From assembly GCA_012932865.1 (NCBI GenBank), contig SAXG01000015.1, positions 434,001 to 498,000 on the forward strand: a stretch of DNA of 64,000 bases, given 5' to 3'. The notes beneath the pieces were generated by a model, which was given only the letters and a program-made list of their open reading frames with translations, was not told the DNA's origin and did no database searches. Made by a program: the position numbers and the translations under genes. The first letter of the stretch is position 1; each line of letters begins with the position of its first letter. Positions 37,978 through 64,000 of this stretch are shown piece after piece. The DNA is from Amylostereum areolatum. Taxonomy: Eukaryota > Basidiomycota > Agaricomycetes > Russulales > Stereaceae.

Positions 37978-40009
37978 TCAGGAAATAGCATCTGGTTTAC
38001 CCATTGTTTTTCCAGGCTTGTGGAGTAGCGTACAATGATACTCTTGTAGCTCCGTCAACCATTGTGCTTGTCTCCAATTTAGCTTCTGTGCCTTGCAGAA
38101 GTACGTGAGATTACGATGATCTGACCAGATTTCAAACTCCTGTTGTGCACCCATGAGGTATTGTCTCCATTCCTCCAGTGCCTTCATGATAGCCAGCAGT
38201 TCCTTGTCATAAATCTCATAGTTCCGCTCAGCTTTGCTGAGGGACTTTGAGAGGAAGGCAACCGGGTGCCATTTGCTATTGTCCTGTTGTTGTGAAAGTA
38301 CCGCACCCGTGGCGTAGTCAGAGGAGTCTGCTTTGACACGGAACTGCCCATCATCTGTAGGGATCACTAGAACTGGCTGTGATGTTATACGTCACTTGAG
38401 TTCCTCGAACACCTCCTGCTGCGGGGTGTCCCAGAACCATTCCGTCTTCCCAGTGAGCTTAGTCATTGGGTGAGCGATGCCACTGAAGTCCTTGATAAAG
38501 CGACAGTAGAAGTTGCAGAAGCCCAAAAACGATTGAAGTTGTTTTTTTGTTTTGGAGGCTGGCCAATTGGTGATTGCTGCAACCTTTGCTGGATCCATGT
38601 GAACCCTTCCTCCGCCCACGATCATGCCTAGATATTCAATTTATGCCTTCTCAAACTCGCACTTTTCTGGCTTCAGATAGAGTTTGTTTTCTCGCAGGAT
38701 CCAGAGGGCCTCTTTGACTATCCGACGATGTTCTTCTAGCGTATGCGTGAAAATGAGGATGTCATCCAAATAGACAACTACAACTCCTTGGTGGATCAAG
38801 TCTTTGAATAGGTCGTTTATCATGGCTTGGAACATAGACAGGGAGTTGGTAAGTCCAAAGAACATGACCGTAGGCTCATAGAAACCTTTGTTTGTGCGGA
38901 ACACAGCTTTCCATTCAACCCCTTCTTTAATCCGAACATTGTTGTACCCCCATCGGACATCGAGCTTGGTAAAATGCCGTGCTCCCTTGAGCTTGTCAAC
39001 CAACTCTTGGATGAGTGGGAGTGGGTAGTGGTTCTTTATCGTCATCTCATTGAGCTTTCGATAGTCTTGCACAGGACGTAACAAGCCGTCTTTTTTCTTG
39101 ATGAAGAAGAATGGGGAGGCCATGGGTGATTTGGATGGTTGGATCCGGCCAGATCTCAGGGGACTCTTCCAAAAAGGCGTCCAGTTGCTTCTGCTTGTCT
39201 AATGTGAGGGAGTAAACTTTGCAATCGACCGGTTTGAAGTTTGGAGTGAGCTCAATGGTGTGGTCCCATGGGTGTCGCTCAGGGAGCTTGTCAAAGTTGT
39301 CTTTGTCAAAGATGTCCTTGAATTCATGGTACACTGTTGGGACTCGCTCAGGAGAAGGCCTGTTCCTTTTTCTTAGCGTGTTCTTCAATTGCAATGTCCA
39401 ATGCATAGGTTCGGATGTGGTATGTCGCTTTGTAACCGTCCCAGTCAAAAGCGAACAGCTGCTCGTCTTTTTCTATGTGGACCAGCTCTTCCTCCTCTTC
39501 TTCATCATCATCAATATTGAGAAGGGGAGGTGGGCAAGAATAGCTGGTAGGGCATCAGTCGAATTCAATTGATCCTGATTTCCAGTCGATGCGAGGGTTG
39601 TGCTTTTTTAGCCACTCATGTCTAATGAAGAGGTCCGTATCTCCTAGATTGGAGACTGCCAAGTCAATGTTTTCTTCATGGTTTTGAATAATTAGACGAA
39701 GTGTGACATATTCCATGATGGGACCCCCTGCGTTGAGGGTGCCATCTGCATTTTGTACTAGGATTGGGCGAGCAGTCCGATGAGATTTTCCTGCACAAAC
39801 TTTGTGTTGATAGACGAGCCAGTGCAACCACGGTCTAGGAGTGCGAGAGCTTTGACAATGCGCCTGGAATCTACCACAAGTTGTGTGGGAATGACCGTTT
39901 GTTCCTTAGCGCTTGAGGAGCATATGAACTGCATGGGAGTGGCAAGCTCTAGTAGAGCTTGACATGCTAATTCTGTTGAAATAAGGCTAAGCCCTGGCCT
40001 GTTGCACAC
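37978..40009 (-). pseudogene. gypsy B protease-RT-RNase H
   Basis: Protease (40009-39780) reads ALLDRGCTGSSINTKFVQEN: DRG replaces the catalytic DSG. RT (39448-38641) has [40 protein letters not shown] and the active-site YLDDILIF. A frameshift lies near 39160. RNase H (38367-37978) has RVKADSSDYATGAVLSQQQD, YDKELLAIMKALEEW and SDHRNLTYF. Stops are present near 38640 and 38392. The tRNA-carrying LTR inserted at 39974, within the upstream part of the protease frame. The domain order is normal for chromoviruses. Confidence 0.88.
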
Positions 40010-40182
40010 AATCAGAGCTCAGTGATATCCTCTATATCAACTGCCAACCTGTTCCCACTATCAGACAGGTAGCTCAGTTGGTTAGAGCACCCTTCTAGAA
40101 TATGGGAGGTCCTGGGTTCAATCCCCGGCCAGTCCACTTTGTGTTTCACTTTATGACTGAAGGTCCCTCTGTGTTTTCAACA
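39974..40182 (+). mobile_element. tRNA-carrying LTR of the miniature retrotransposon family
   Basis: A 209-bp unit, TGTTGAAA...TTTTCAACA, the same length as and nearly identical to each LTR of the element at 57535-58037, here in plus orientation. A tRNA-like gene lies inside at 40063-40136. Its right end abuts the copia LTR at 40183 with no intervening base. The TSD AATTC lies at 39969-39973 and only reappears after that copia LTR, at 40635-40639. Confidence 0.9.
40063..40136 (+). tRNA. tRNA-like sequence, anticodon AGA by position
   Basis: A 74-nt cloverleaf: D stem GCTC/GAGC, T arm CTGGG/CCCGG with loop TTCAATC, variable loop of 5 nt. The acceptor stem pairs at 5 of 7 positions, with A-C at the first pair and A-A at the fifth. 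Box A TAGCTCAGTTG and box B GTTCAATCC fit Pol III promoters. The anticodon loop CTAGAAT gives AGA, but serine tRNAs need a long variable arm, so a working tRNA-Ser is doubtful. The first TTTT lies near 40173, at the LTR end. Confidence 0.6.
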
Positions 40183-40634
40183 TGTTGAAGATATTCATTT
40201 ATGTCTGATTTCTACGCCTTTCTTTTGTTCTATCTCTATTCTATTCGCTTCTATTCTGCTCCATTCACCCTCTTATCGCCTCATTCTGCGTCTATATCCT
40301 TTCCGCTTCCTCTCCCCTTCACCTACTGTACCCATTTGTACTATACTTACTGTAGTTCAGCCTGAGATAGCTTCCCTAGCTTCAGTTTTGAGTTAGTTAC
40401 CGCTTTAGGTCTATTCTCGGCTTATTCCAAGTTTCCTCCCACGCTCCGTGGCCTCTACCTGCAGCCACACATGTCTGCTCCTCCTCAGTCGCTCATTCTG
40501 TGCTGCAGGTATGCCCCTTGCTTGTTTCTGTCTTGTTTCTCAGTCGCTCATTCTGTGCTGCAGCAATCCACTGTTTGTGTCAGTTCTGAGTGTCCCTAGC
40601 TAGTTGGCTAGCCCCTTCAACTGCGACTTCAACA
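40183..40634 (+). mobile_element. copia LTR joined to the tRNA-carrying LTR
   Basis: A 452-bp copia LTR in plus orientation. It has no TSD of its own: its left neighbour is the last base of the tRNA-carrying LTR, and its right flank AATTC matches the base run left of that LTR. The two LTRs therefore behave as one insertion. Confidence 0.92.
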
Positions 40635-44209: not shown

Positions 44210-44660
44210 TGTTGAAGATATTCGTTTATGTCTGATTTCTACGCCTTTATTCTGTTCTATCTCCCTTCTATTCGCGTCTATTCCGCTCCATTCACCCTAT
44301 TATCATCTAATTCCGCGTCTATACCCTCACATGCCCTCTCCACTTCACCCACTGTTCGCTATTGTACTGTACTTACTGTAGTTCAGCCTGAGCTAGCTTC
44401 CCTAGCTTCAGTTTCGAGTTAGTTACCGCTTTAGGTCGATTCTCGGCTTATTCCGAGTTTCCTCCCACGCTCCATGGCCTCTACCTGCAGCCACACGCGT
44501 CTGCTCCTCCTCAGTCGCTCATTCTGTGCTGCAGGTATGCCCTTTGCTCGTTTCTGTCTTGTTTCTCAGTCGCTCATTCTGTGCTGCAGCAATCCACTGT
44601 TTGTGTCAGTTCTGAGCGTCCCTAGCTAGTTGGCTAGCCCCTTCAACTGCGACTTCAACA
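44210..44660 (+). mobile_element. copia 1 5' LTR
   Basis: TGTTGAAG...CTTCAACA. It contains two copies of a 23-nt unit (CAGTCGCTCATTCTGTGCTG plus CAG) around 44512 and 44568, with GTATGCC following the first. No strong TATA box is seen. Confidence 0.95.
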
Positions 44661-44672
44661 GGTTATGGGCCC
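44661..44672 (+). promoter_or_regulatory. copia primer binding site (initiator-Met tRNA anticodon arm)
   Basis: GGTTATGGGCCC begins directly after the LTR. It is complementary to the conserved anticodon stem-loop GGGCCCAUAACC of eukaryotic initiator tRNA-Met, the half-tRNA priming site known from Drosophila copia. Confidence 0.75.
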
Positions 44673-45367
44673 TGCGCTCTAGCCAACATCCATCGCTTTT
44701 ATCTCGCCTCACAGCACCCCCCTCGCCTCGTCCTTCTACACACCTCTCCTACCATCCCTAGAGGCCCCAGCCCTCGAGTTTCAAGTCGAACGACCCATCC
44801 GTCGCCTCCCAACGCCATCCCCATCCTCCAGGGCGCGCATTTCGCAACATCAAGCGCGCACGCAACGCCCCTTCATCCGTTCGCCTCGCCCTTGCATATT
44901 CCGCATCTACTACTCCCTATCCAACTTCGTGCCAAGCCCCAAGGCCGTCGCTTTTGTCGCTGCGCGTCCACAGCCTGTGACGCTTCCTCCTCCTCCTCCC
45001 ACAAACATCAAAGGCGCCCTCAGCGCCCCTTCAACCGTTTGCTACCTCGCTTCGCGTCAGCCCTCCCTACCACCCTACCTACCCCCTCGCCAAACGCGGT
45101 AGCCGTCGCTGAAGCCGTTCGCCCTCAGGAGCTCGTTGTTTGCAGGAGGCTGTTTCGAGAAATTTTCACCTTGGGATCGGACGAGTGTAGCTTCCCATCG
45201 CGTTGTGCTATCGGTACGCGCTCTTCAGGCCTCCATCTAGACCATCCACCCTCCCCATCGCCGTCGTACCCGCCCCCATCGCCCTATCCCATCGCCCTCG
45301 GCGCCCCCTCGAACCTCTGCTCGTCCAAATCGTCGCTTTTTGCGTATATCCTCTCCAATTCCTCATT
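44673..45367 (+). other. copia leader (untranslated region)
   Basis: A C/T-rich leader of about 700 nt. An in-frame start at 45203 would add 55 residues (MCYRYALFRPPSRPS...) to the polyprotein. I prefer 45368 because the MSDSIPKIDALTGQNYKDW start resembles copia gag N-termini. Short upstream frames look accidental. Confidence 0.5.
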
Positions 45368-48300
45368 ATGTCCGACTCTATCCCCAAAATCGACGCTCTC
45401 ACCGGCCAAAACTACAAGGACTGGTCGAACGAGGTTCTGGCCTGGCTCCAGACCAAGGGCTGGGACGCTGTAGTGCTGGGGGAGACGTCCAAGCCGGCGG
45501 ATACTGCTGCTGCCGCCCTCAAGGAGTACACCTCGATCTGCTCCAAGGCTGGGGGTGCCATCTACCTCCTCATCTCCAAGGACCAGCGAGGTCCTGTGGA
45601 CGACCTTAGGCGCGACGCCCCTGCTATGTGGACGAAGCTCGAGGCGCTGCACGTCAAGAAGGCGCCTGGCGCGCGCTTCAACGCGTATGACGACCTCTTC
45701 AATGTCCGCAAGAAGGAGGACGAGTCCCTGCTCGCTATGGCGACGCGAGTCGACGATGCTATGCGTCGCATTCGTTCCCTTCGCCCTGCGTCTCTCACCC
45801 TCGAGGAGCTCGACAAGGAGCTCACCACCATGGCGTACATCCGCGCCCTCCCCTCGGAGTACTCCTCCTTCGTCTCCTCCCTCCTCCTGCTCGAGAAGCT
45901 CGACCCCGACAGCGTCAAGGACGTGTTTGTGCGCGAGGAGACCAACAGGGAGCGCAACCCCGAGTTCTTCAAGCCGGACGCTTCGTCTGCGCTCAGTGCG
46001 TCGTCGTCTGGCGCATCTGGCAAGGCCAAGGGGCAGTCCTCGCGTCCACGTCTCACTTGCGCGTTCTGCAAGAAGAGCGGGCACGAGGAGAAGACCTGCT
46101 ATCAGAAGCAGATCAAGGACCTGCGTTCTCGCCTTGGGGACAAGGCCAACGCCGCTTCGTCGTCGTCTGACGGCTTCAATCCTGCTGGCGAACACGCTGG
46201 CAGCGCTGCATCCGCAAGTGTCGCTCCTTCCGACCCCCTCTCGCCGCTGCAGCTCGATGCTGACGTCGATTGGAATGCAGACACCGGCGCCACGTCTCAT
46301 ATGACCCCGCATCGCCACTTCTTCGCCTCCTACCGTCCCCTTCGCACGCCCATTCGCCTCGCAGACGGAAAGACGGTGTACAGTGCAGGAGTCGGTTCAG
46401 TGGTGTTCAATCCGGTTGTAGCAGGAAAGGCGCAGGGTGCCGTCGAGTTTACTAGAGTCCTCCATGTTCCCCATCTTCGCAATAATCTCCTCTCTGTCCT
46501 CTACCTTGCGAAGCATAAGGCGTTCGTCGTCACCATCAAGGGGAGCCGCGTCTCCTTCGCTAAGGACGGCGCTGTGTGGTTCACTGCAACGATCAACGAT
46601 GCGAACACCGCCTATCTCGATGGTTCCACCTCTACAGCGTCGCACTACGCCCTATCCGCCGCGCTCGCCGCCTCTACGCCGCTCGACGCGTCCCTATGGC
46701 ACCGCCGCCTGGCTCACTTCAACCACGCTGGTCTCCAGCGCATAGTGCGCGAGAATCTCGTCACCGGTCTCGTCTTCAACTCGTTAGAGAAGCCCGACCC
46801 TATCTGCGAGCCCTGCCTCGCTGGCAAGATGCATGCCGACCCGTTCCCCTCCTCTACCACCGTCTACACAAAGCGCCTCGCCCTCGTCCACTCTGACCTG
46901 CACGGTCCGCTTCCAGTCCGCACCGCCTCTGGCTATCGCTACTGGGTCCTCTACATCGACGCCGCCTCGCGTTTCTACGCCGTCTACCTGCTTCGCAAGA
47001 AGTCGGACCAGTACGAGGCGTTCAAGGACTTCAAAGCGTGGGCCGAGAAGCAGACAGGCGAGAAGCTGCTCGCGCTGCAGGACGACAAGGGGGGCGAGTA
47101 CATGGGGCGCAACATGGACGAGTTCTGTTCGCTGCACGGGATCGAGCGCCGTCATACGACGCGCAATCGCCCTCAGCAGAACGGCGTGGCGGAGCGTGCA
47201 AATCGCACCATTGAGGAGGGTGTCACCGCGATGCTTGCGGAGTCCGGCCTGCCTGCGTCTTTCTGGGGAGAAGCGCTCAGTGCCTACATCCACGTCCGCA
47301 ACCGCCTGCCCACCGCCGCCATCAAGGCGCACACCACGCCCTTCGAGCTCTGGCACGGGTCCAAGCCGGATGTGAGTCGTCTGCGCGTGTGGGGATGCAC
47401 CGCATACGTCCATATCCAGCGCGACAAGCGCAAGGGCCTGCAGCCGCACATGGTGAAGGCCGCCTTCATCGGGTATCCGGAGGGGTACAAAGGCTGGAAG
47501 TTCTGGGACCCTATAGCGAAGAAGGTCATCATTTGCGAGCGCGCCGACTTTGATGAGCGCGATTTCCCTCGCTCCAGGCTCAACAAGCCGCTCCTGCCCT
47601 CGCCTTCCGCTCCCCTCTTCCCTCCTCCGCCTCCATCGGAGCCTGCTCCCTCTCAGCCGGTGCTGGATGCCGGGGGAGACGACGACTCGTCCTCTGCTGA
47701 GCAAGACGAGCCTGATCTGCCTCCAGCTCCGCCTGCTGATGAGCATGATCAGGATGCGGCCGATCCCGCTCCTGCGCCGCCTGCAGCCGATCCTGCACCT
47801 CCCTCTCCACATGCGGGTCCTTCGCGGCCTGCTCCTCGAGGGAGGAAGCGCGCCGCCTCGCCCACCGGTCCTCTGCGCCGTAGCACGCGCGACGCCGTGG
47901 TCAAGGCGCGATCGAACAGCTGGCAGCCTCAACCAGTGCCCTCCAAGGCGAAAGTGCGCGAGCCGCTTCCTGCAGTCGAATCCGACGAGGAGGACGATGC
48001 TCACAGCGACTCTCCTGAGCCGTGGGCGAATGACGACGTCTACTCTGCGCAGGAGACGCCTGAGGCCGCCTTTGCCATCCACACCGCGTTGGAGACTGCC
48101 CTTCTATCCGCAGACGGCGAGCCGCTCTCCTACAGGCAGGCTATGCAGCGTTCAGACGCGGAGATGTGGCTTGCAGCGTGCAGAGAGGAGCTCGACGCGC
48201 ATGCAGCCAATGGCACCTGGTCTATCGCTTCCCTTCCCCCTGGCGCGCACGCCGTCGCATCGCGCTGGGTCTTCAAGGTCAAGCGCAAGGAGGACGGCTC

Positions 48301-49678
48301 CATCGAGCGCTACAAGGCGCGCGTCGTCGCGAAGGGCTTTGCCCAGCGTCCTGGCTTCGACTACTTCGAGACCTTCGCTCCCACTGCCAAGTTCCAGGCC
48401 ATCCGCACTGTCCTCGCCCTCGCCGCCGTCGAGGATCTCCACCTGCGCTCCATCGACATCTCCCATGCCTTCATCAATGGCGACCTCGATGCGGAGGTCT
48501 ACATGAAGCAGCCTGAAGGCTTCGAGGAGGGTCCTCCTGGCGCGGTCTGCAAGCTGCAGAAGTCGATCTACGGCCTCAAGCAGGCCGCTCGCCTGTGGAA
48601 GATCAAGCTGATGGAGGTCCTGTGCGACAAGATGGGATTCCGCTGCATCTACAGCGACGCGTCAATCTACGTGCTCCAGCGCGACGCTGTGCGCGTTCTC
48701 CTCCCTGTCTTCGTCGACGACGGCACCCTGGCGTCGAATTCGGAGCCTGTTCTCGACGAGATCATCGCCACTCTTCGCACGCACTTCAAGCTGCGAGACC
48801 TCGGCCCCACCTCCTTCCTCCTTGGCATCCACATCACTCGAGACCGCTCCCTTCGCACCCTCTTCCTCTCCCAGCGCCAGTACATCATCGACACGCTTGC
48901 GCGCTACAATCACGCCGACTGCCACCCTGTCACCACGCCTATGCTTCCTGGCTCGCGTCTGACGAAGGCCATGTCGCCCCAGAATGCTTCTGAGCGCGAA
49001 TTCATGCAAAAGGTGCCCTATGGCAGCGCCGTCGGCTCCCTGCTCTACATCGCGACTGCGACCCGTCCAGACATCGCCTACACTGTCTCCAATCTCTGCC
49101 GCTTCATTTCGGACCCAGGTCCTCAGCATTGGCGCGCCGTCCAGCATCTGTTCAAGTACCTCCAGGGCACGAAGGACTTGAAGCTCGTGTACAGGCCGAC
49201 CGACGACTCCGAGCTGTTCACCACCTTCACAGACTCGGACCACGGCGGAAACGTCGACAATGGCCGCTCCACAGGCGGGTATCTCGTCCGCATTGGTTCT
49301 GGCGCTGTCAGCTGGAGCTCTCGCCTCCAATCGCTCGTCGCACAGTCGACGACCGAGGCGGAGTACATTGCTGCCGTCGAGGCTGGCAAGGAGATCGTCT
49401 GGATGCGCAACCTGCTCTCTGAGTTTGGCTACACAGTCGAGGGCGCTTCGCTCCTGTACTCGGACAATCAGTCGTCTATCAACGTCTCAAAGAATCCCGA
49501 GCATCATGGACGCATGAAGCACCTCGACCTGCGCTTCTACTGGCTGCGAGACGAAGTGGAGGCCGGCCGGATTGTTCTCAAGTTTGTGGGGACAAACGAG
49601 ATGCCGGCCGACATCCTGACGAAGGCGCTGCCTCGGGAGCGCGTTGTGCGCTGCAGGGAGATGATGGGACTCGAGTAG
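45368..49678 (+). CDS. copia polyprotein: gag, protease, integrase, RT, RNase H
   Basis: 1436 residues, no stop or shift. Gag spans about 1-230 (GQNYKDWSNEVLAWL, then a helical copia-type capsid). A CCHC knuckle CAFCKKSGHEEKTC lies at about 231-244. The protease has DTGATSHM at 305. The integrase has its zinc end from His445 (HRRLAHFNHAG...CEPC) and the catalytic triad Asp510, Asp573, Glu609 (35 residues between the last two, as expected for DD35E). A Pro-rich linker lies at about 740-850. The RT has FVDD with Asp1117-1118, and the RNase H contains TDSDHGGN at about 1289, ending with ADILTKALPRE. Order PR-IN-RT-RH defines Ty1/copia. All visible catalytic residues are kept, so it may be functional. 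Copy 2 differs at two residues. Confidence 0.96.
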   Translation: MSDSIPKIDALTGQNYKDWSNEVLAWLQTKGWDAVVLGETSKPADTAAAALKEYTSICSKAGGAIYLLISKDQRGPVDDLRRDAPAMWTKLEALHVKKAPGARFNAYDDLFNVRKKEDESLLAMATRVDDAMRRIRSLRPASLTLEELDKELTTMAYIRALPSEYSSFVSSLLLLEKLDPDSVKDVFVREETNRERNPEFFKPDASSALSASSSGASGKAKGQSSRPRLTCAFCKKSGHEEKTCYQKQIKDLRSRLGDKANAASSSSDGFNPAGEHAGSAASASVAPSDPLSPLQLDADVDWNADTGATSHMTPHRHFFASYRPLRTPIRLADGKTVYSAGVGSVVFNPVVAGKAQGAVEFTRVLHVPHLRNNLLSVLYLAKHKAFVVTIKGSRVSFAKDGAVWFTATINDANTAYLDGSTSTASHYALSAALAASTPLDASLWHRRLAHFNHAGLQRIVRENLVTGLVFNSLEKPDPICEPCLAGKMHADPFPSSTTVYTKRLALVHSDLHGPLPVRTASGYRYWVLYIDAASRFYAVYLLRKKSDQYEAFKDFKAWAEKQTGEKLLALQDDKGGEYMGRNMDEFCSLHGIERRHTTRNRPQQNGVAERANRTIEEGVTAMLAESGLPASFWGEALSAYIHVRNRLPTAAIKAHTTPFELWHGSKPDVSRLRVWGCTAYVHIQRDKRKGLQPHMVKAAFIGYPEGYKGWKFWDPIAKKVIICERADFDERDFPRSRLNKPLLPSPSAPLFPPPPPSEPAPSQPVLDAGGDDDSSSAEQDEPDLPPAPPADEHDQDAADPAPAPPAADPAPPSPHAGPSRPAPRGRKRAASPTGPLRRSTRDAVVKARSNSWQPQPVPSKAKVREPLPAVESDEEDDAHSDSPEPWANDDVYSAQETPEAAFAIHTALETALLSADGEPLSYRQAMQRSDAEMWLAACREELDAHAANGTWSIASLPPGAHAVASRWVFKVKRKEDGSIERYKARVVAKGFAQRPGFDYFETFAPTAKFQAIRTVLALAAVEDLHLRSIDISHAFINGDLDAEVYMKQPEGFEEGPPGAVCKLQKSIYGLKQAARLWKIKLMEVLCDKMGFRCIYSDASIYVLQRDAVRVLLPVFVDDGTLASNSEPVLDEIIATLRTHFKLRDLGPTSFLLGIHITRDRSLRTLFLSQRQYIIDTLARYNHADCHPVTTPMLPGSRLTKAMSPQNASEREFMQKVPYGSAVGSLLYIATATRPDIAYTVSNLCRFISDPGPQHWRAVQHLFKYLQGTKDLKLVYRPTDDSELFTTFTDSDHGGNVDNGRSTGGYLVRIGSGAVSWSSRLQSLVAQSTTEAEYIAAVEAGKEIVWMRNLLSEFGYTVEGASLLYSDNQSSINVSKNPEHHGRMKHLDLRFYWLRDEVEAGRIVLKFVGTNEMPADILTKALPRERVVRCREMMGLE

Positions 49679-49697
49679 GCGTCTCATCACGGGGGAG

Positions 49698-50148
49698 TGT
49701 TGAAGATATTCGTTTATGTCTGATTTCTACGCCTTTATTCTGTTCTATCTCCCTTCTATTCGCGTCTATTCCGCTCCATTCACCCTATTATCATCTAATT
49801 CCGCGTCTATACCCTCACATGCCCTCTCCACTTCACCCACTGTTCGCTATTGTACTGTACTTACTGTAGTTCAGCCTGAGCTAGCTTCCCTAGCTTCAGT
49901 TTCGAGTTAGTTACCGCTTTAGGTCGATTCTCGGCTTATTCCGAGTTTCCTCCCACGCTCCATGGCCTCTACCTGCAGCCACACGCGTCTGCTCCTCCTC
50001 AGTCGCTCATTCTGTGCTGCAGGTATGCCCTTTGCTCGTTTCTGTCTTGTTTCTCAGTCGCTCATTCTGTGCTGCAGCAATCCACTGTTTGTGTCAGTTC
50101 TGAGCGTCCCTAGCTAGTTGGCTAGCCCCTTCAACTGCGACTTCAACA
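49698..50148 (+). mobile_element. copia 1 3' LTR
   Basis: 451 bp, apparently identical to the 5' LTR. It starts 19 nt after the polyprotein stop, with the purine tract in between. Confidence 0.95.
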
Positions 50149-52510: not shown

Positions 52511-53047
52511 CCGCTTCTTTAGACACCACTGTTCCTTTAGACACCGGGCGATTTCTCAGCCAGTTCCTGATGGATCCCTTTTGTCTTGGGCTCAAATTAA
52601 AGATATATATCTATACTACAAACCCCTAAAGGGAATAAGGTCATAGAGAAGTCCTTCTTCTTCTGTTAGGAGAAGAAGGGGAGATTTTGGTGTAATCAGA
52701 AAAAAAAGTCGGCCTTTATCATGGTCTAGAGGCTTCAGTTCATGCTCGATTTTCGTTGTTATAGGCTCAGATTGTTCCCTACGTTCATAGTTTTCTGCTG
52801 ATCCTACATATGTCTATATTCCGTGCACAGGATATTGTGTTATACCTAATCTTGTGCAAGTCAAGAAAAGTGTGACTCAGAACATGTGATCTGTGATGTC
52901 ACAGCATCTTGTCACTGGCCTCGGACTTTGCCCTTGGACTTTCTAGTGGGGTCATCCTCTCCGCTTTGCTCTCAACCACCACCAGTATTCTACAACTCAG
53001 CCTCTTGCTCTCTGTGCTATTATGTGCTGCTCTTTGCTCTCTCTCAG
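52511..53047. other. Leader region of the pogo-type element, no gene
   Basis: AT-rich sequence upstream of the transposase frame. The frame is open in phase from 52886, but the upstream part (HWPRTLPLDFLVGSSSPLCS) does not look conserved. I saw no terminal inverted repeat. Confidence 0.35.
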
Positions 53048-54540
53048 ATGGCTCCTTCTAAATCTTTGACTCTCAAAGCTCATGAGGCTAGGGCTGAAAA
53101 AGATTCTCTGTATGCAAAGGCTGTGGCTGCTTATAAAGCTGAGCAGGAGAAAGATCCAAAGCTGCGGAGAGGTGCTCAGTCTATCTGTCGAGAATTTGAA
53201 AACCTGCGTCGTCTTGAGACTGGGAAGATGGTGAGTCTGAATCATCAGACACTGCTCAATCATGCTTGTGGCGGAAAAACTCTGAGCGAGTTTAATCGGG
53301 AGAAAAGCTGGTTGACTAAAGATGAGACAGAGGTTATCATTTATTATCTCATTAAGACTGCATCTTGGGGATTTCTGCTCAGTCATCGACGACTTAAAGA
53401 GCATGTTGATGAAGTTTTGCATGCTCGTCTTGGTGATAAATTTCCTGAGTTTGGAGTTGGCGTAAACTGGACCCATCGTTACCATGATGAAATAAAAATG
53501 TGCTGGGCACACCCTCTTAACTCTGTGCGCGGACGTGCTATTAATCCAGCAACTTATGATGCTTGGTTTACTATGATTGACAAGCTGTTCACCAATCTTA
53601 GCATTGACGAGGAATGTCTGTGGGCTGCTGACAAGACTGGATTCCCACCAAATGATGGTGAGGATGAGCGTGATATTGCAGGGGCTGCTGTATGACATCA
53701 GTATCAACAAAAAGGTGGAAACAAAGAAAATATTACTGTCATGGTTACTATCTGTGCGGATGGCACAAGTATTGCACCTACTGTCGTATACAAGGGACAG
53801 GCATTTATGGCATCATGGAAGCAGAATAACCCTTTGCATGCATCATTAGATATTCCAAAAAGGGCTGGATTAATGGTGAAATTGGTGCTCTTTGGATGCA
53901 GGACTTTGACAAAAAGACTGAGCATAAAGCAGCTGATCATGCTCGTATTTTGCTTGTAGATGGGCACAATTCGCATTACACCCGTGATTTTCTTGAATAT
54001 GCATGTGGTCATAATATTCATGTGCTGTGTTATTCTGCTCATGCTACACATGTTTATCAGGGCCTAGATGTTGTGATATTTGGTCCATTGAAAAAATACT
54101 GGTCTCAGGAGCGGAATAAGCATGAACGCCAAATAGGCGAAGCTATCTCAAAGGAAATTTTTCTAGCTGTATATGCTGCTGCACATCTTCGCGCATTGAC
54201 AAGAGATAATATTTAGAGTGCATTCGTAAAACTGGTATTTGGCCATTGAACAAAGATGCTATATCATCTGAAAAGCTTGCACCGAGTAAAGAGACATCAC
54301 AGAAGGCATATATTCCTGCTGAAATTTCACCAGAGCTTCAGGCAGTAGCGCTCGTGCTTGACTCGATAGGACAAAAAGATCGTGCCCGTGTATTCTGGCC
54401 TACACCACCATTCCGTCGGGAGAGCTGCAAGATCTTTGTAAGCCGAGAGCTAGCAAAAGATGTCATACCAAACTCTGTGAGAGACCACCCAGTGATTTTT
54501 TCCACAACATCTGCCAGTTATCCGGCCTCTCTCGGTGTGA
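53048..54540 (+). pseudogene. pogo/Fot-type DDE transposase, broken
   Basis: Starts MAPSKSLTLKAHEARAEKDS. A helix-turn-helix/CENP-B-like DNA-binding part follows (GGKTLSEFNREKSWLTKDET, then GVNWTHRYHDEIKMCWAHPL). The DDE domain has DEECLWAADKTGFPPNDGED with the first Asp, VTICADGTSIAPTVVYKGQA, then ILLVDGHNSHYTRDFLEYAC with the second Asp, and THVYQGLDVVIFGPLKKYWS. The tail reads TGIWPLNKDAISSEKLAPSK. Defects: a TGA stop at 53693, a frameshift in an A run near 53865, and a stop plus frameshift near 54214-54230. It cannot make a full protein. It stops abruptly at 54540 against a partial copia LTR; a matching C-terminal piece lies inverted at 56350-57390. Confidence 0.85.
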
Positions 54541-57390: not shown

Positions 57391-57580
57391 GAGAGCGACG
57401 TGATGCCCTCCAGATCTCAATGTTCAAACATCGTCAAATCAGACAGCTCTCGTGTGAGACCGCTCTCATTCAGAGATCTCTAGGATCTCCCAGAGGTCTC
57501 CCGACGAGACCCTGCTGTTCACTCTGGCTGCTCGTGTTGAAAACACAGAGGGACCTTCAGTCATAAAGTGAAACACAAAG

Positions 57581-57654
57581 TGGACTGGCCGGGGATTGAA
57601 CCCAGGACCTCCCATATTCTAGAAGGGTGCTCTAACCAACTGAGCTACCTGTCC
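57581..57654 (-). tRNA. tRNA-like sequence in the TRIM 3' LTR
   Basis: Same 74-nt cloverleaf as at 40063-40136. The acceptor stem GGACAGG/CCAGTCC pairs at 6 of 7 positions (A-A at the fifth), discriminator A. Box A and box B are intact and the anticodon is AGA by position. The first TTTT downstream on the minus strand is at the LTR end (57542-57539). Short variable loop, so charging with serine is doubtful. Confidence 0.6.
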
Positions 57655-57811
57655 GATAGTGGGAACAGGTTGGTAGTTGATATAGAGAATATCACCGAGC
57701 TCTGATTGTGTGCAACAGGCCAGGGCTTAGCCTTATTTCAACACACCCCCGTAAGACCAGGCCTGATGTGATCTTAGGCACTCGCCACTTGTGCCCAACA
57801 GTAATCATGAA

Positions 57812-57828
57812 GGCGGGTGCTGCTACCA
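57812..57828 (-). promoter_or_regulatory. TRIM primer binding site
   Basis: TGGTAGCAGCACCCGCC directly follows the 5' LTR on the minus strand. TGGTAGC is the complement of the GCUACCA 3' end of initiator tRNA-Met, as used by Ty1. Confidence 0.6.
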
Positions 57829-57874
57829 TGTTGAAAACACAGAGGGACCTTCAGTCATAAAGTGAAACACAAAG

Positions 57875-57948
57875 TGGACTGGCCGGGGATTGAACCCAGG
57901 ACCTCCCATATTCTAGAAGGGTGCTCTAACCAACTGAGCTACCTGTCC
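57875..57948 (-). tRNA. tRNA-like sequence in the TRIM 5' LTR
   Basis: Identical to the copy at 57581-57654. Being in the 5' LTR, its Pol III promoter could drive transcripts within the LTR. A Pol III start inside the tRNA would not by itself give full-length element RNA, so a Pol II start upstream is still needed for mobility. Confidence 0.6.
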
Positions 57949-58042
57949 GATAGTGGGAACAGGTTGGTAGTTGATATAGAGAATATCACCGAGCTCTGAT
58001 TGTGTGCAACAGGCCAGGGCTTAGCCTTATTTCAACAGCTCG

Positions 58043-59193: not shown

Positions 59194-59644
59194 TGTTGAA
59201 GTCGCAGTTGAAGGGGCTAGCCAACTAGCTAGGGACGCTCAGAACTGACACAAACAGTGGATTGCTGCAGCACAGAATGAGCGACTGAGAAACAAGACAG
59301 AAACGAGCAAAGGGCATACCTGCAGCACAGAATGAGCGACTGAGGAGGAGCAGACGCGTGTGGCTGCAGGTAGAGGCCATGGAGCGTGGGAGGAAACTCG
59401 GAATAAGCCGAGAATCGACCTAAAGCGGTAACTAACTCGAAACTGAAGCTAGGGAAGCTAGCTCAGGCTGAACTACAGTAAGTACAGTACAATAGCGAAC
59501 AGTGGGTGAAGTGGAGAGGGCATGTGAGGGTATAGACGCGGAATTAGATGATAATAGGGTGAATGGAGCGGAATAGACGCGAATAGAAGGGAGATAGAAC
59601 AGAATAAAGGCGTAGAAATCAGACATAAACGAATATCTTCAACA
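59194..59644 (-). mobile_element. copia 2 3' LTR
   Basis: 451 bp, same sequence by eye as the LTRs of copy 1, followed (towards the gene) by the same purine tract. Confidence 0.95.
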
Positions 59645-59663
59645 CTCCCCCGTGATGAGACGC

Positions 59664-62600
59664 CTACTCGAGTCCCATCATCTCCCTGCAGCGCACAACG
59701 CGCTCACGAGGCAGCGCCTTCGTCAGGATGTCGGCCGGCATCTCGTTTGTCCCCACAAACTTGAGAACAATCCGGCCGGCCTCCACTTCGTCTCGCAGCC
59801 AGTAGAAGCGCAGGTCGAGGTGCTTCATGCGTCCATGATGCTCGGGATTCTTTGAGACGTTGATAGACGACTGATTGTCCGAGTACAGGAGCGAAGCGCC
59901 CTCGACTGTGTAGCCAAACTCAGAGAGCAGGTTGCGCATCCAGACGATCTCCTTGCCAGCCTCGACGGCAGCAATGTACTCCGCCTCGGTCGTCGACTGT
60001 GCGACGAGCGATTGGAGGCGAGAGCTCCAGCTGACAGCGCCAGAACCAATGCGGACGAGATACCCGCCTGTGGAGCGGCCATTGTCGACGTTTCCGCCGT
60101 GGTCCGAGTCTGTGAAGGTGGTGAACAGCTCGGAGTCGTCGGTCGGCCTGTACACGAGCTTCAAGTCCTTCGTGCCCTGGAGGTACTTGAACAGATGCTG
60201 GACGGCGCGCCAATGCTGAGGACCTGGGTCCGAAATGAAGCGGCAGAGATTGGAGACAGTGTAGGCGATGTCTGGACGGGTCGCAGTCGCGATGTAGAGC
60301 AGGGAGCCGACGGCGCTGCCATAGGGCACCTTTTGCATGAATTCGCGCTCAGAAGCGTTCTGGGGCGACATGGCCTTCGTCAGACGCGAGCCAGGAAGCA
60401 TAGGCGTGGTGACAGGGTGGCAGTCGGCGTGATTGTAGCGCGCAAGCGTGTCGATGATGTACTGGCGCTGGGAGAGGAAGAGGGTGCGAAGGGAGCGGTC
60501 TCGAGTGATGTGGATGCCAAGGAGGAAGGAGGTGGGGCCGAGGTCTCGCAGCTTGAAGTGCGTGCGAAGAGTGGCGATGATCTCGTCGAGAACAGGCTCC
60601 GAATTCGACGCCAGGGTGCCGTCGTCGACGAAGACAGGGAGGAGAACGCGCACAGCGTCGCGCTGGAGCACGTAGATTGACGCGTCGCTGTAGATGCAGC
60701 GGAATCCCATCTTGTCGCACAGGACCTCCATCAGCTTGATCTTCCACAGGCGAGCGGCCTGCTTGAGGCCGTAGATCGACTTCTGCAGCTTGCAGACCGC
60801 GCCAGGAGGACCCTCCTCGAAGCCTTCAGGCTGCTTCATGTAGACCTCCGCATCGAGGTCGCCATTGATGAAGGCATGGGAGATGTCGATGGAGCGCAGG
60901 TGGAGATCCTCGACGGCGGCGAGGGCGAGGACAGTGCGGATGGCCTGGAACTTGGCAGTGGGAGCGAAGGTCTCGAAGTAGTCGAAGCCAGGACGCTGGG
61001 CAAAGCCCTTCGCGACGACGCGCGCCTTGTAGCGCTCGATGGAGCCGTCCTCCTTGCGCTTGACCTTGAAGACCCAGCGCGATGCGACGGCGTGCGCGCC
61101 AGGGGGAAGGGAAGCGATAGACCAGGTGCCATTGGCTGCATGCGCGTCGAGCTCCTCTCTGCACGCTGCAAGCCACATCTCCGCGTCTGGACGCTGCATA
61201 GCCTGCCTGTAGGAGAGCGGCTCGCCGTCTGCGGATAGAAGGGCAGTCTCCAACGCGGTGTGGATGGCAAAGGCGGCCTCAGGCGTCTCCTGCGCAGAGT
61301 AGACGTCGTCATTCGCCCACGGCTCAGGAGAGTCGCTGTGAGCATCGTCCTCCTCGTCGGATTCGACTGCAGGAAGCGGCTCGCGCACTTTCGCCTTGGA
61401 GGGCACTGGTTGAGGCTGCCAGCTGTTCGATCGCGCCTTGACCACGGCGTCGCGCGTGCTACGGCGCAGAGGACCGGTGGGCGAGGCGGCGCGCTTCCTC
61501 CCTCGAGGAGCAGGCCGCGAAGGACCCGCATGTGGAGAGGGAGGTGCAGGATCGGCTGCAGGCGGCGCAGGAGCGGGATCGGCCGCATCCTGATCATGCT
61601 CATCAGCAGGCGGAGCTGGAGGCAGATCAGGCTCGTCTTGCTCAGCAGAGGACGAGTCGTCGTCTCCCCCGGCATCCAGCACCGGCTGAGAGGGAGCAGG
61701 CTCCGATGGAGGCGGAGGAGGGAAGAGGGGAGCGGAAGGCGAGGGCAGGAGCGGCTTGTTGAGCCTGGAGCGAGGGAAATCGCGCTCATCAAAGTCGGCG
61801 CGCTCGCAAATGATGACCTTCTTCGCTATAGGGTCCCAGAACTTCCAGCCTTTGTACCCCTCCGGATACCCGATGAAGGCGGCCTTCACCATGTGCGGCT
61901 GCAGGCCCTTGCGCTTGTCGCGCTGGATATGGACGTATGCGGTGCATCCCCACACGCGCAGACGACTCACATCCGGCTTGGACCCGTGCCAGAGCTCGAA
62001 GGGCGTGGTGTGCGCCTTGATGGCGGCGGTGGGCAGGCGGTTGCGGACGTGGATGTAGGCACTGAGCGCTTCTCCCCAGAAAGACGCAGGCAGGCCGGAC
62101 TCCGCAAGCATCGCGGTGACACCCTCCTCAATGGTGCGATTTGCACGCTCCGCCACGCCGTTCTGCTGAGGGCGATTGCGCGTCGTATGACGGCGCTCGA
62201 TCCCGTGCAGCGAACAGAACTCGTCCATGTTGCGCCCCATGTACTCGCCCCCCTTGTCGTCCTGCAGCGCGAGCAGCTTCTCGCCTGTCTGCTTCTCGGC
62301 CCACGCTTTGAAGTCCTTGAACGCCTCGTACTGGTCCGACTTCTTGCGAAGCAGGTAGACGGCGTAGAAACGCGAGGCGGCGTCGATGTAGAGGACCCAG
62401 TAGCGATAGCCAGAGGCGGTGCGGACTGGAAGCGGACCGTGCAGGTCAGAGTGGACGAGGGCGAGGCGCTTTGTGTAGACGGTGGTAGAGGAGGGGAACG
62501 GGTCGGCATGCATCTTGCCAGCGAGGCAGGGCTCGCAGATAGGGTCGGGCTTCTCTAACGAGTTGAAGACGAGACCGGTGACGAGATTCTCGCGCACTAT

Positions 62601-63974
62601 GCGCTGGAGACCAGCGTGGTTGAAGTGAGCCAGGCGGCGGTGCCATAGGGACGCGTCGAGCGGCGTAGAGGCGGCGAGCGCGGCGGATAGGGCGTAGTGC
62701 GACGCTGTAGAGGTGGAACCATCGAGATAGGCGGTGTTCGCATCGTTGATCGTTGCAGTGAACCACACAGCGCCGTCCTTAGCGAAGGAGACGCGGCTCC
62801 CCTTGATGGTGACGACGAACGCCTTATGCTTCGCAAGGTAGAGGACAGAGAGGAGATTATTGCGAAGATGGGGAACATGGAGGACTCTAGTAAACTCGAC
62901 GGCACCCTGCGCCTTTCCTGCTACAACCGGATTGAACACCACTGAACCGACTCCTGCACTGTACACCGTCTTTCCGTCTGCGAGGCGAATGGGCGTGCGA
63001 AGGGGACGGTAGGAGGCGAAGAAGTGGCGATGCGGGGTCATATGAGACGTGGCGCCGGTGTCTGCATTCCAATCGACGTCAGCATCGAGCTGCAGCGGCG
63101 AGAGGGGGTCGGAAGGAGCGACACTTGCGGATGCAGCGCTGCCAGCGTGTTCGCCAGCAGGATTGAAGCCGTCAGACGACGACGAAGCGGCGTTGGCCTT
63201 GTCCCCAAGGCGAGAACGCAGGTCCTTGATCTGCTTCTGATAGCAGGTCTTCTCCTCGTGCCCGCTCTTCTTGCAGAACGCGCAAGTGAGACGTGGACGC
63301 GAGGACTGCCCCTTGGCCTTGCCAGATGCGCCAGACGACGACGCACTGAGCGCAGACGAAGCGTCCGGCTTGAAGAACTCGGGGTTGCGCTCCCTGTTGG
63401 TCTCCTCGCGCACAAACGCGTCCTTGACGCTGTCGGGGTCGAGCTTCTCGAGCAGGAGGAGGGAGGAGACGAAGGAGGAGTACTCCGAGGGGAGGGCGCG
63501 GATGTACGCCATGGTGGTGAGCTCCTTGTCGAGCTCCTCGAGGGTGAGAGACGCAGGGCGAAGGGAACGAATGCGACGCATAGCATCGTCGACTCGCGTC
63601 GCCATAGCGAGCAGGGACTCGTCCTCCTTCTTGCGGACATTGAAGAGGTCGTCATACGCGTTGAAGCGCGCGCCAGGCGCCTTCTTGACGTGCAGCGCCT
63701 CGAGCTTCGTCCACATAGCAGGGGCGTCGCGCCTAAGGTCGTCCACAGGACCTCGCTGGTCCTTGGAGATGAGGAGGTAGATGGCACCCCCAGCCTTGGA
63801 GCAGATCGAGGTGTACTCCTTGAGGGCGGCAGCAGCAGTATCCGCCGGCTTGGACGTCTCCCCCAGCACTACAGCGTCCCAGCCCTTGGTCTGGAGCCAG
63901 GCCAGAACCTCGTTCGACCAGTCCTTGTAGTTTTGGCCGGTGAGAGCGTCGATTTTGGGGATAGAGTCGGACAT
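59664..63974 (-). CDS. copia polyprotein, copy 2
   Basis: 1436 residues, intact. Gag, CCHC knuckle, DTGATSHM protease, DD35E integrase, FVDD reverse transcriptase and RNase H are as in copy 1. By comparison of the translations the two proteins differ only at gag residue about 187 (Ala here in SVKDAFV, Val in copy 1) and in the region before RT (QRPDAEMW here, QRSDAEMW in copy 1). Neither change touches a catalytic residue. With copy 1 it shows that this family moved recently. Its enzymes are candidates for moving the TRIM at 57535-58037 in trans. Confidence 0.96.
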   Translation of the reverse strand: MSDSIPKIDALTGQNYKDWSNEVLAWLQTKGWDAVVLGETSKPADTAAAALKEYTSICSKAGGAIYLLISKDQRGPVDDLRRDAPAMWTKLEALHVKKAPGARFNAYDDLFNVRKKEDESLLAMATRVDDAMRRIRSLRPASLTLEELDKELTTMAYIRALPSEYSSFVSSLLLLEKLDPDSVKDAFVREETNRERNPEFFKPDASSALSASSSGASGKAKGQSSRPRLTCAFCKKSGHEEKTCYQKQIKDLRSRLGDKANAASSSSDGFNPAGEHAGSAASASVAPSDPLSPLQLDADVDWNADTGATSHMTPHRHFFASYRPLRTPIRLADGKTVYSAGVGSVVFNPVVAGKAQGAVEFTRVLHVPHLRNNLLSVLYLAKHKAFVVTIKGSRVSFAKDGAVWFTATINDANTAYLDGSTSTASHYALSAALAASTPLDASLWHRRLAHFNHAGLQRIVRENLVTGLVFNSLEKPDPICEPCLAGKMHADPFPSSTTVYTKRLALVHSDLHGPLPVRTASGYRYWVLYIDAASRFYAVYLLRKKSDQYEAFKDFKAWAEKQTGEKLLALQDDKGGEYMGRNMDEFCSLHGIERRHTTRNRPQQNGVAERANRTIEEGVTAMLAESGLPASFWGEALSAYIHVRNRLPTAAIKAHTTPFELWHGSKPDVSRLRVWGCTAYVHIQRDKRKGLQPHMVKAAFIGYPEGYKGWKFWDPIAKKVIICERADFDERDFPRSRLNKPLLPSPSAPLFPPPPPSEPAPSQPVLDAGGDDDSSSAEQDEPDLPPAPPADEHDQDAADPAPAPPAADPAPPSPHAGPSRPAPRGRKRAASPTGPLRRSTRDAVVKARSNSWQPQPVPSKAKVREPLPAVESDEEDDAHSDSPEPWANDDVYSAQETPEAAFAIHTALETALLSADGEPLSYRQAMQRPDAEMWLAACREELDAHAANGTWSIASLPPGAHAVASRWVFKVKRKEDGSIERYKARVVAKGFAQRPGFDYFETFAPTAKFQAIRTVLALAAVEDLHLRSIDISHAFINGDLDAEVYMKQPEGFEEGPPGAVCKLQKSIYGLKQAARLWKIKLMEVLCDKMGFRCIYSDASIYVLQRDAVRVLLPVFVDDGTLASNSEPVLDEIIATLRTHFKLRDLGPTSFLLGIHITRDRSLRTLFLSQRQYIIDTLARYNHADCHPVTTPMLPGSRLTKAMSPQNASEREFMQKVPYGSAVGSLLYIATATRPDIAYTVSNLCRFISDPGPQHWRAVQHLFKYLQGTKDLKLVYRPTDDSELFTTFTDSDHGGNVDNGRSTGGYLVRIGSGAVSWSSRLQSLVAQSTTEAEYIAAVEAGKEIVWMRNLLSEFGYTVEGASLLYSDNQSSINVSKNPEHHGRMKHLDLRFYWLRDEVEAGRIVLKFVGTNEMPADILTKALPRERVVRCREMMGLE

Positions 63975-64000
63975 AATGAGGAATTGGAGAGGATATACGC

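Follow-up and report, generated by a model that had tools for sequence, protein, structure and literature searches.

The window analysed here, a stretch of 64,000 nucleotides of Amylostereum areolatum DNA on contig C56, contains two tRNA-like sequences side by side on the minus strand, and raises two questions: are they a tandem pair of tRNA genes or parts of a mobile element, and, if the latter, what moves an element whose interior is too short for a retrotransposon gene? A sequence-only reading had proposed a complete miniature LTR retrotransposon (TRIM) with a tRNA-like gene in each LTR. Its anatomy was reproduced when all parts were measured again (identical 209-bp LTRs, 85-bp interior, target-site duplication (TSD) GCTCG), and ARAGORN and Rfam agree on a tRNA-like sequence in each LTR, where box A-like and box B-like stretches are also present. 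The proposed primer site and purine tract are both present; the orientation had to be corrected, as the TRIM reads on the minus strand. The features of the locus, and of its relatives in the window, are as follows.

57530-57534, no strand: TSD GCTCG on the 3' side of the TRIM (flank reading)
57535-57743, minus: 3' LTR, 209 bp (LTR alignment)
57540-57543, minus: T4 run (TTTT in the sense strand) of the 3' LTR, candidate Pol III terminator
57581-57654, minus: tRNA-like sequence of the 3' LTR (ARAGORN, Ser-AGA; Rfam tRNA, 56.1 bits)
57744-57828, minus: TRIM interior of 85 bp, with no room for a retrotransposon gene
57744-57752, minus: polypurine-tract (PPT) end ACGGGGGTG before the 3' LTR, with GGGGGTG at 57744-57750
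57816-57828, minus: primer-binding site (PBS) TGGTAGCAGCACC (match to a tRNA-Met 3' end)
57829-58037, minus: 5' LTR, 209 bp, same sequence as the 3' LTR (LTR alignment)
57834-57837, minus: T4 run of the 5' LTR
57875-57948, minus: tRNA-like sequence of the 5' LTR (ARAGORN; Rfam)
57886-57896, minus: box B-like GGTTCAATCCC of the 5' LTR (LTR positions 142-152)
57930-57941, minus: box A-like TAGCTCAGTTGG of the 5' LTR (LTR positions 97-108)
57973-57978, minus: TATATC in the 5' LTR, preceding its tRNA-like sequence by about 30 nt, role putative
58038-58042, no strand: TSD GCTCG on the 5' side of the TRIM (flank reading)
39974-40182, plus: solo LTR of the TRIM family, 98.1% identical, fused to a Copia solo LTR
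44210-50148, plus: Copia of the likely helper family, TSD CATGA, its two 451-bp LTRs identical to each other
59194-64000, minus: second Copia, TSD GTTCC, continuing past the window end to C56:499132

The complete element is thus 503 bp long (209-bp LTR, 85-bp interior, 209-bp LTR; 57535-58037), its LTRs are 100% identical and lie 294 bp apart from start to start, and on the sense strand each LTR begins with TGTTGAA and ends with TTCAACA. Each LTR has a TATATC 30 nt upstream of its tRNA-like part and a TTTT run downstream of it, near the LTR end; these two TTTT runs are the only ones in the TRIM. The LTR ends, the PBS and PPT, the TSDs and an empty site (described below) rule out a tandem tRNA gene pair. 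A tRNA-derived SINE lacks LTRs and has a LINE-like tail and variable TSDs; the LTRs, PBS, PPT and constant 5-bp TSDs found here rule out a SINE.

A search of the genome (57.13 Mb, 182 contigs) with the LTR, as the sequence-only reading had suggested, returned full-length and solo copies with differing 5-bp TSDs, and such TSD-flanked copies at many places bear out its claim of a mobile element: 168 LTR starts were found at up to 2 mismatches (0 in a backward-read control). A 36-nt interior pattern, with up to 3 mismatches allowed, found 55 TRIM interiors, of which 52 match it exactly. A divergent solo LTR pattern taken from the window gave 42 matches at up to 2 mismatches. Flanks were read for 41 of the 55 interiors: 35 have exact 5-bp TSDs (two once a nested insertion was resolved), five have none, and one was unreadable to its end. 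Flanks shared beyond the LTRs, which had been named in advance as evidence against transposition, do occur in four of the 35 TSD-flanked copies (C1 twice, C56:513679 and C72:17679), which came from copying of a larger segment or from a second haplotype; with these removed, 31 separate insertions with 30 different TSDs remain. Solo LTRs carry a TSD in 10 of 14 non-duplicate cases, with four further rows from C1 left out as duplicates. Among 105 LTR rows, in which a few LTRs are counted twice via overlapping loci, 78 are identical to the window LTR and 17 distinct forms occur.

Direct evidence of recent movement comes from the window's own contig. The segment C56:507172-515350 repeats 492038-506668 at 99.9-100% identity, and two additional pieces alone distinguish the longer copy: the TRIM of 503412-503914, whose TSD reads TCTAG in sense orientation, and the Copia of 493194-499132 (TSD GTTCC), which is the second Copia of the window. 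When the flanks of each piece are joined minus one TSD, they give sequences present in the shorter copy. The near-identical duplicate therefore preserves the empty sites of one TRIM and one Copia, which is recent transposition of both; the second window Copia inserted very recently, because it is absent from the nearby duplicate segment.

The kind of element is already known. Kojima (2024) described as Helenus the TRIMs with tRNA-like sequences in their LTRs (PMC10886601), and that paper names Pucciniales, Agaricales and Amylostereum (Russulales) as fungal hosts. By structure, rather than by a match to a consensus sequence, the TRIM described here belongs there: two short LTRs and no coding capacity within 503 bp (the Helenus/TRIMp3 limit is about 1.3 kb), boxes A and B within a tRNA-derived stretch of each LTR, a PBS and a PPT at the ends of the interior, and 5-bp TSDs as in fungal Helenus (35 of 41 interiors read, out of 55). 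The likeness extends to many copies and solo LTRs, to mis-calling as tRNA genes with Ser-AGA among the types, and to some fungal families that also use the 3' end of initiator-Met tRNA (PMC10886601). Several Helenus families have a Copia partner with the same PBS, a feature that the paper does not make part of the definition (PMC10886601); no Copia sharing the PBS was found in two pattern searches of this assembly, and the LTR ends, the PPT-LTR junction and most genomic zones are shared instead. Among the papers listed by a literature search on TRIMp3/Helenus, which left most subscription journals outside its reach, none but PMC10886601 dealt with them. Helenus is also a nearer parallel than the one first proposed, the plant Cassandra elements: both are TRIMs laid out with a Pol III gene for a small RNA in either LTR, but Cassandra carries 5S rRNA and the element here a tRNA-like sequence; no 5S rRNA was found in the LTR by an Rfam scan of the window, which returned only three RF00005 tRNA matches. 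Transcription of Cassandra is stated as validated in PMC10886601, whereas the tRNA-like TRIM here is known from sequence alone.

What, then, mobilises the TRIM? The two Copia elements of the window are 99.9% identical over 4,807 bp and have open frames of 1,491 and 1,436 codons, with gag and RVT_2 domains (Pfam) and an integrase-core match below the Pfam cut-off. Relatives of the reverse transcriptase among the matches listed come from Sparassis crispa, Taiwanofungus camphoratus and Trametes sanguinea, all Polyporales, and also from plants (Lupinus, Centaurea; 38-42% identity). This Copia shares with the TRIM the 7-nt LTR termini TGTTGAA and TTCAACA, and a scan of 127,956 window positions for the PPT-LTR junction of the TRIM, at 16 or more of 22 bases, turned up just the two Copia junctions besides the TRIM's own. 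Beyond the LTR termini and this junction, a comparison of TRIM and Copia gave no significant similarity. Copia LTR sequences also touch those of the TRIM family in other ways. At 39974-40634 of the window, solo LTRs of the TRIM and of Copia stand end to end within one AATTC duplication. Two cDNAs may have been inserted jointly, or a slip of 5 bp may have followed a nested insertion; this fusion was met once within 356,034 bases examined (overlaps counted). Copia LTR sequence lies within a TRIM LTR at C139:1142314-1142799, with a CAATC duplication on both sides, and at C94:635483-635546, where the CAATC target is seen on one side. Elsewhere, Copia LTR starts are evenly spaced at C41:5856-20796 (3,728 bp), C85:67285-80148 (about 4,278 bp) and C108:364195-366161 (969 bp), a regularity suggestive of tandem arrays that include Copia LTRs.

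The genomic distributions of the two elements point in the same direction. Another TRIM interior lies within 50 kb of 50 of the 55 interiors, against a mean of 4.9 and a maximum of 19 in 20,000 uniform draws that ignore contig ends, and the same holds for 43 of 48 after seven suspected duplicates or recombinants are dropped; the interiors fall on 19 contigs with a summed span of 319 kb. The Copia of the window clusters likewise (48 of 57 5' ends have a same-family neighbour within 50 kb), whereas a second Copia-type family is dispersed, with such a neighbour at 2 of 23 places in 20 contigs. The LTR-end/primer-site junction of this dispersed family (for example at C5:84535, with 22 similar places) is nearly, but not exactly, that of the zone Copia; its Copia-type gag was checked at one place, where the first 1.3 kb shares just the 21-nt junction with the window Copia. 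A zone-Copia 5' end lies within 50 kb of 46 of the 55 TRIM interiors and a dispersed-family one within 50 kb of five; conversely, a TRIM interior lies within that distance of 42 of 57 zone-Copia 5' ends vs. 2 of 23 dispersed-family ends. TRIM and zone Copia therefore cluster in largely the same zones, which do not overlap fully: 15 of 46 exactly matching zone-Copia 5' ends are more than 50 kb from any TRIM interior; nine of the 55 TRIM interiors are farther than 50 kb from every zone-Copia 5' end; the TRIM contigs C1, C72 and C117 have no zone-Copia 5' ends; and Copia contigs without a TRIM interior include C2, C85, C131, C137 and C142. Five TRIM interiors have no other within 50 kb; on C76, an interior at 624 kb is distant from the LTRs of that contig (845-859 kb), and on C165, 64 kb separate two interiors.

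In most contigs the zone Copia is limited to one zone, a pattern reminiscent of GlCEN427, a centromeric Copia of Ganoderma leucocontextum (Polyporales) that is confined to one repeat zone per chromosome and has LTRs of about 427 bp, compared with 451 bp here (PMC10817607). The two are likened by description, and on this analogy the zones would be candidate centromeres; the available text of PMC10817607 mentions no TRIM with GlCEN427, which sets the present case apart. A distribution in Copia zones likewise has no counterpart in the accessible parts of PMC10886601 on Helenus. Two further open frames accompany the elements: a PIF1-like helicase frame (Pfam PF05970; 6702-8519 of locus L036, minus strand) in a TRIM zone, which could belong to a Helitron, and a 269-codon frame at 52886-53695 of the window (plus strand) without a Pfam match. 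The latter appears to resemble the N-terminal part of a pogo-type transposase.

The primer site complicates the choice of helper. The TRIM site TGGTAGCAGCACC pairs over 13 nt, counting the added CCA, with the very 3' end (GAGGTGCTGCTA) of the tRNA-Met gene in locus L054, and over 12 nt with a second tRNA-Met type (L055). By features characteristic of initiators, both genes are of the initiator type. A pattern of the initiator T-arm and acceptor end has six matches in the genome, of which four belong to the L054 type and two to the L055 type (controls 1 and 0), and ARAGORN was applied to two of the six, those in L054 and L055. The Copia primer site GGTTATGGGCCCTGCG instead matches the anticodon arm of the same tRNA-Met; TRIM and Copia differ in primer site. 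A helper with the same site as the TRIM was not found in the assembly: CATGGTAGCAGCACC, required flush after CA at up to 1 mismatch, gave 56 matches, namely 55 TRIM interiors and a single one-mismatch place (controls 1 and 2), and an exact search with a longer form of the site, without CA, gave two matches, both TRIM copies.

Taken together, we consider it probable that the element is a recently mobile, non-coding TRIM of the Helenus type, the tRNA-like part of which serves as a Pol III promoter and which the Copia of the shared zones reverse-transcribes and inserts; from the shared ends and zones, the zone Copia likely mobilises the TRIM. Transcription would start, Pol III fashion, upstream of the tRNA-like part in the 5' LTR, read through the T4 run of that LTR and stop at its counterpart in the 3' LTR; in some fungi, four Ts terminate Pol III weakly. 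The repeated R region would then comprise the tRNA-like part and its tail, leaving a U5 of 5 nt ahead of the primer site. Reverse transcriptase, integrase and the initiator-Met tRNA would come from Copia particles, with the TRIM primed from the intact 3' end of this tRNA and Copia itself from the anticodon arm, and the Copia integrase would insert the TRIM cDNA with 5-bp TSDs into zones of Copia insertion.

Because the primer site is not common to Copia and no other user of it was found, a lost or unassembled helper is possible: another LTR retrotransposon with a primer site for the initiator-Met 3' end might have been lost, lie unassembled or survive in other strains. The differing primer sites speak for such a helper, as do Helenus families that share their PBS with a Copia, one such Copia using the initiator-Met 3' end (PMC10886601). 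Nevertheless, we regard it as unlikely, given that no second user of CATGGTAGCAGCACC was found in the assembly at up to 1 mismatch, that the LTR ends, the PPT-LTR junction and most zones are common to TRIM and zone Copia, and that the zone Copia moved after the same duplication as did a TRIM copy.

The role of the tRNA-like part is a separate matter from that of the helper. ARAGORN places Ser-AGA tRNA-like sequences at 57580-57654 and 57874-57948, both on the minus strand, and Rfam RF00005 recovers the same two, one base shorter (56.1 bits, E 2.2e-9); tRNA-Ser(AGA) was called in 60 of 64 LTRs at the 23 loci scanned. The part varies at 14 of 73 positions, vs. 21 of 136 in the remaining LTR, and is no more conserved than the remainder. 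This lack of excess conservation among the LTRs read would fit an inert cargo in an element transcribed by Pol II, a reading to which we give a small chance: of the 17 distinct LTR forms, 16 retain box A and 13 box B, and the sole two T4 runs occupy matching positions in the two LTRs, downstream of the tRNA-like part. A promoter role, as set out above, also appears likelier than the roles in RNA stability or packaging that had been offered beside it.

That the sequence yields a working or regulatory tRNA, with the element mainly spreading tRNA genes, is very improbable, despite the tRNA-Ser(AGA) calls and the Rfam score. We take the variable loop to be of the short class I type, at odds with a Ser anticodon, and it is for this reason that a functional tRNA-Ser from the TRIM LTR appears unlikely; the sequence also shows mismatches in two stems, A against A in the acceptor stem and T against T in the anticodon stem. 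RNA folding compared with shuffles found the tRNA-like part not markedly better (z −1.25, or 0.28 with downstream sequence) and lent no support to a stable cloverleaf. As a statement about sequence, the proposal that the element spreads a Pol III gene is borne out (60 of 64 LTRs), and annotators should note that up to about 168 "tRNA-Ser(AGA)" calls in this genome could be retrotransposon ends.

The TRIM copies have in turn been caught up in rearrangements. The copy at C56:506669-507171 sits between the two repeated segments described above; its 5' flank is that of the window TRIM and its 3' flank that of the TRIM at 515351, each identical to the respective parent over the 400 bp compared, and beyond. 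It bears what reads as the mark of unequal crossover between TRIM copies; a haplotype misjoin at a TRIM would give the same picture, and the empty sites would stand under either. The region C56:491535-515853 has the form of a tandem duplication with the recombinant TRIM at its junction, and on C1 (1630520-1648358) a block of two opposite TRIMs and several solo LTRs is repeated 11,327 bp on. That segmental duplication and recombination, with little transposition, produced most of the clusters is highly improbable, since the duplicated blocks (C1, C56 and C72/C134) and the recombinant copy are outweighed by 31 separate insertions that contradict it for most copies read, by the direct empty site on C56 and by the clustering that persists without the seven suspects; as the sole source of the copies, duplication is ruled out by these insertions, although four TSD-flanked copies are duplicates.

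Against this known background, four points are new: a 13-nt primer site for an initiator-type Met tRNA, with no other element bearing the site in two pattern searches, and differing from the shared-site pairs of Helenus (PMC10886601) in not being that of the likely helper; LTR termini and a PPT-LTR junction common to the TRIM and a young Copia that appears to prime from the anticodon arm; the clustering of TRIM and zone Copia in zones that largely coincide, in contrast to the dispersal of a second Copia-type family; and the flanks of three TRIM copies, which appear to mark an unequal crossover. It is conceivable, and we put it forward tentatively as the less probable extension of our reading, that the TRIM seeks centromeres by using the integrase of a centromeric Copia and the same initiator-Met tRNA from the opposite end, seeding Pol III tRNA-like genes into the centromere-like zones and helping to reshape these by unequal crossover between its copies.

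In conclusion, we describe a young tRNA-bearing TRIM family for which the genome itself proves recent transposition and a helper candidate can be named, and the transcription, priming and targeting of Pol III-promoted TRIMs thereby become testable. Pol III-type sequences act as chromatin barriers in other fungi; if the zones of A. areolatum are centromeres, such sequences would have been placed inside them by transposition.
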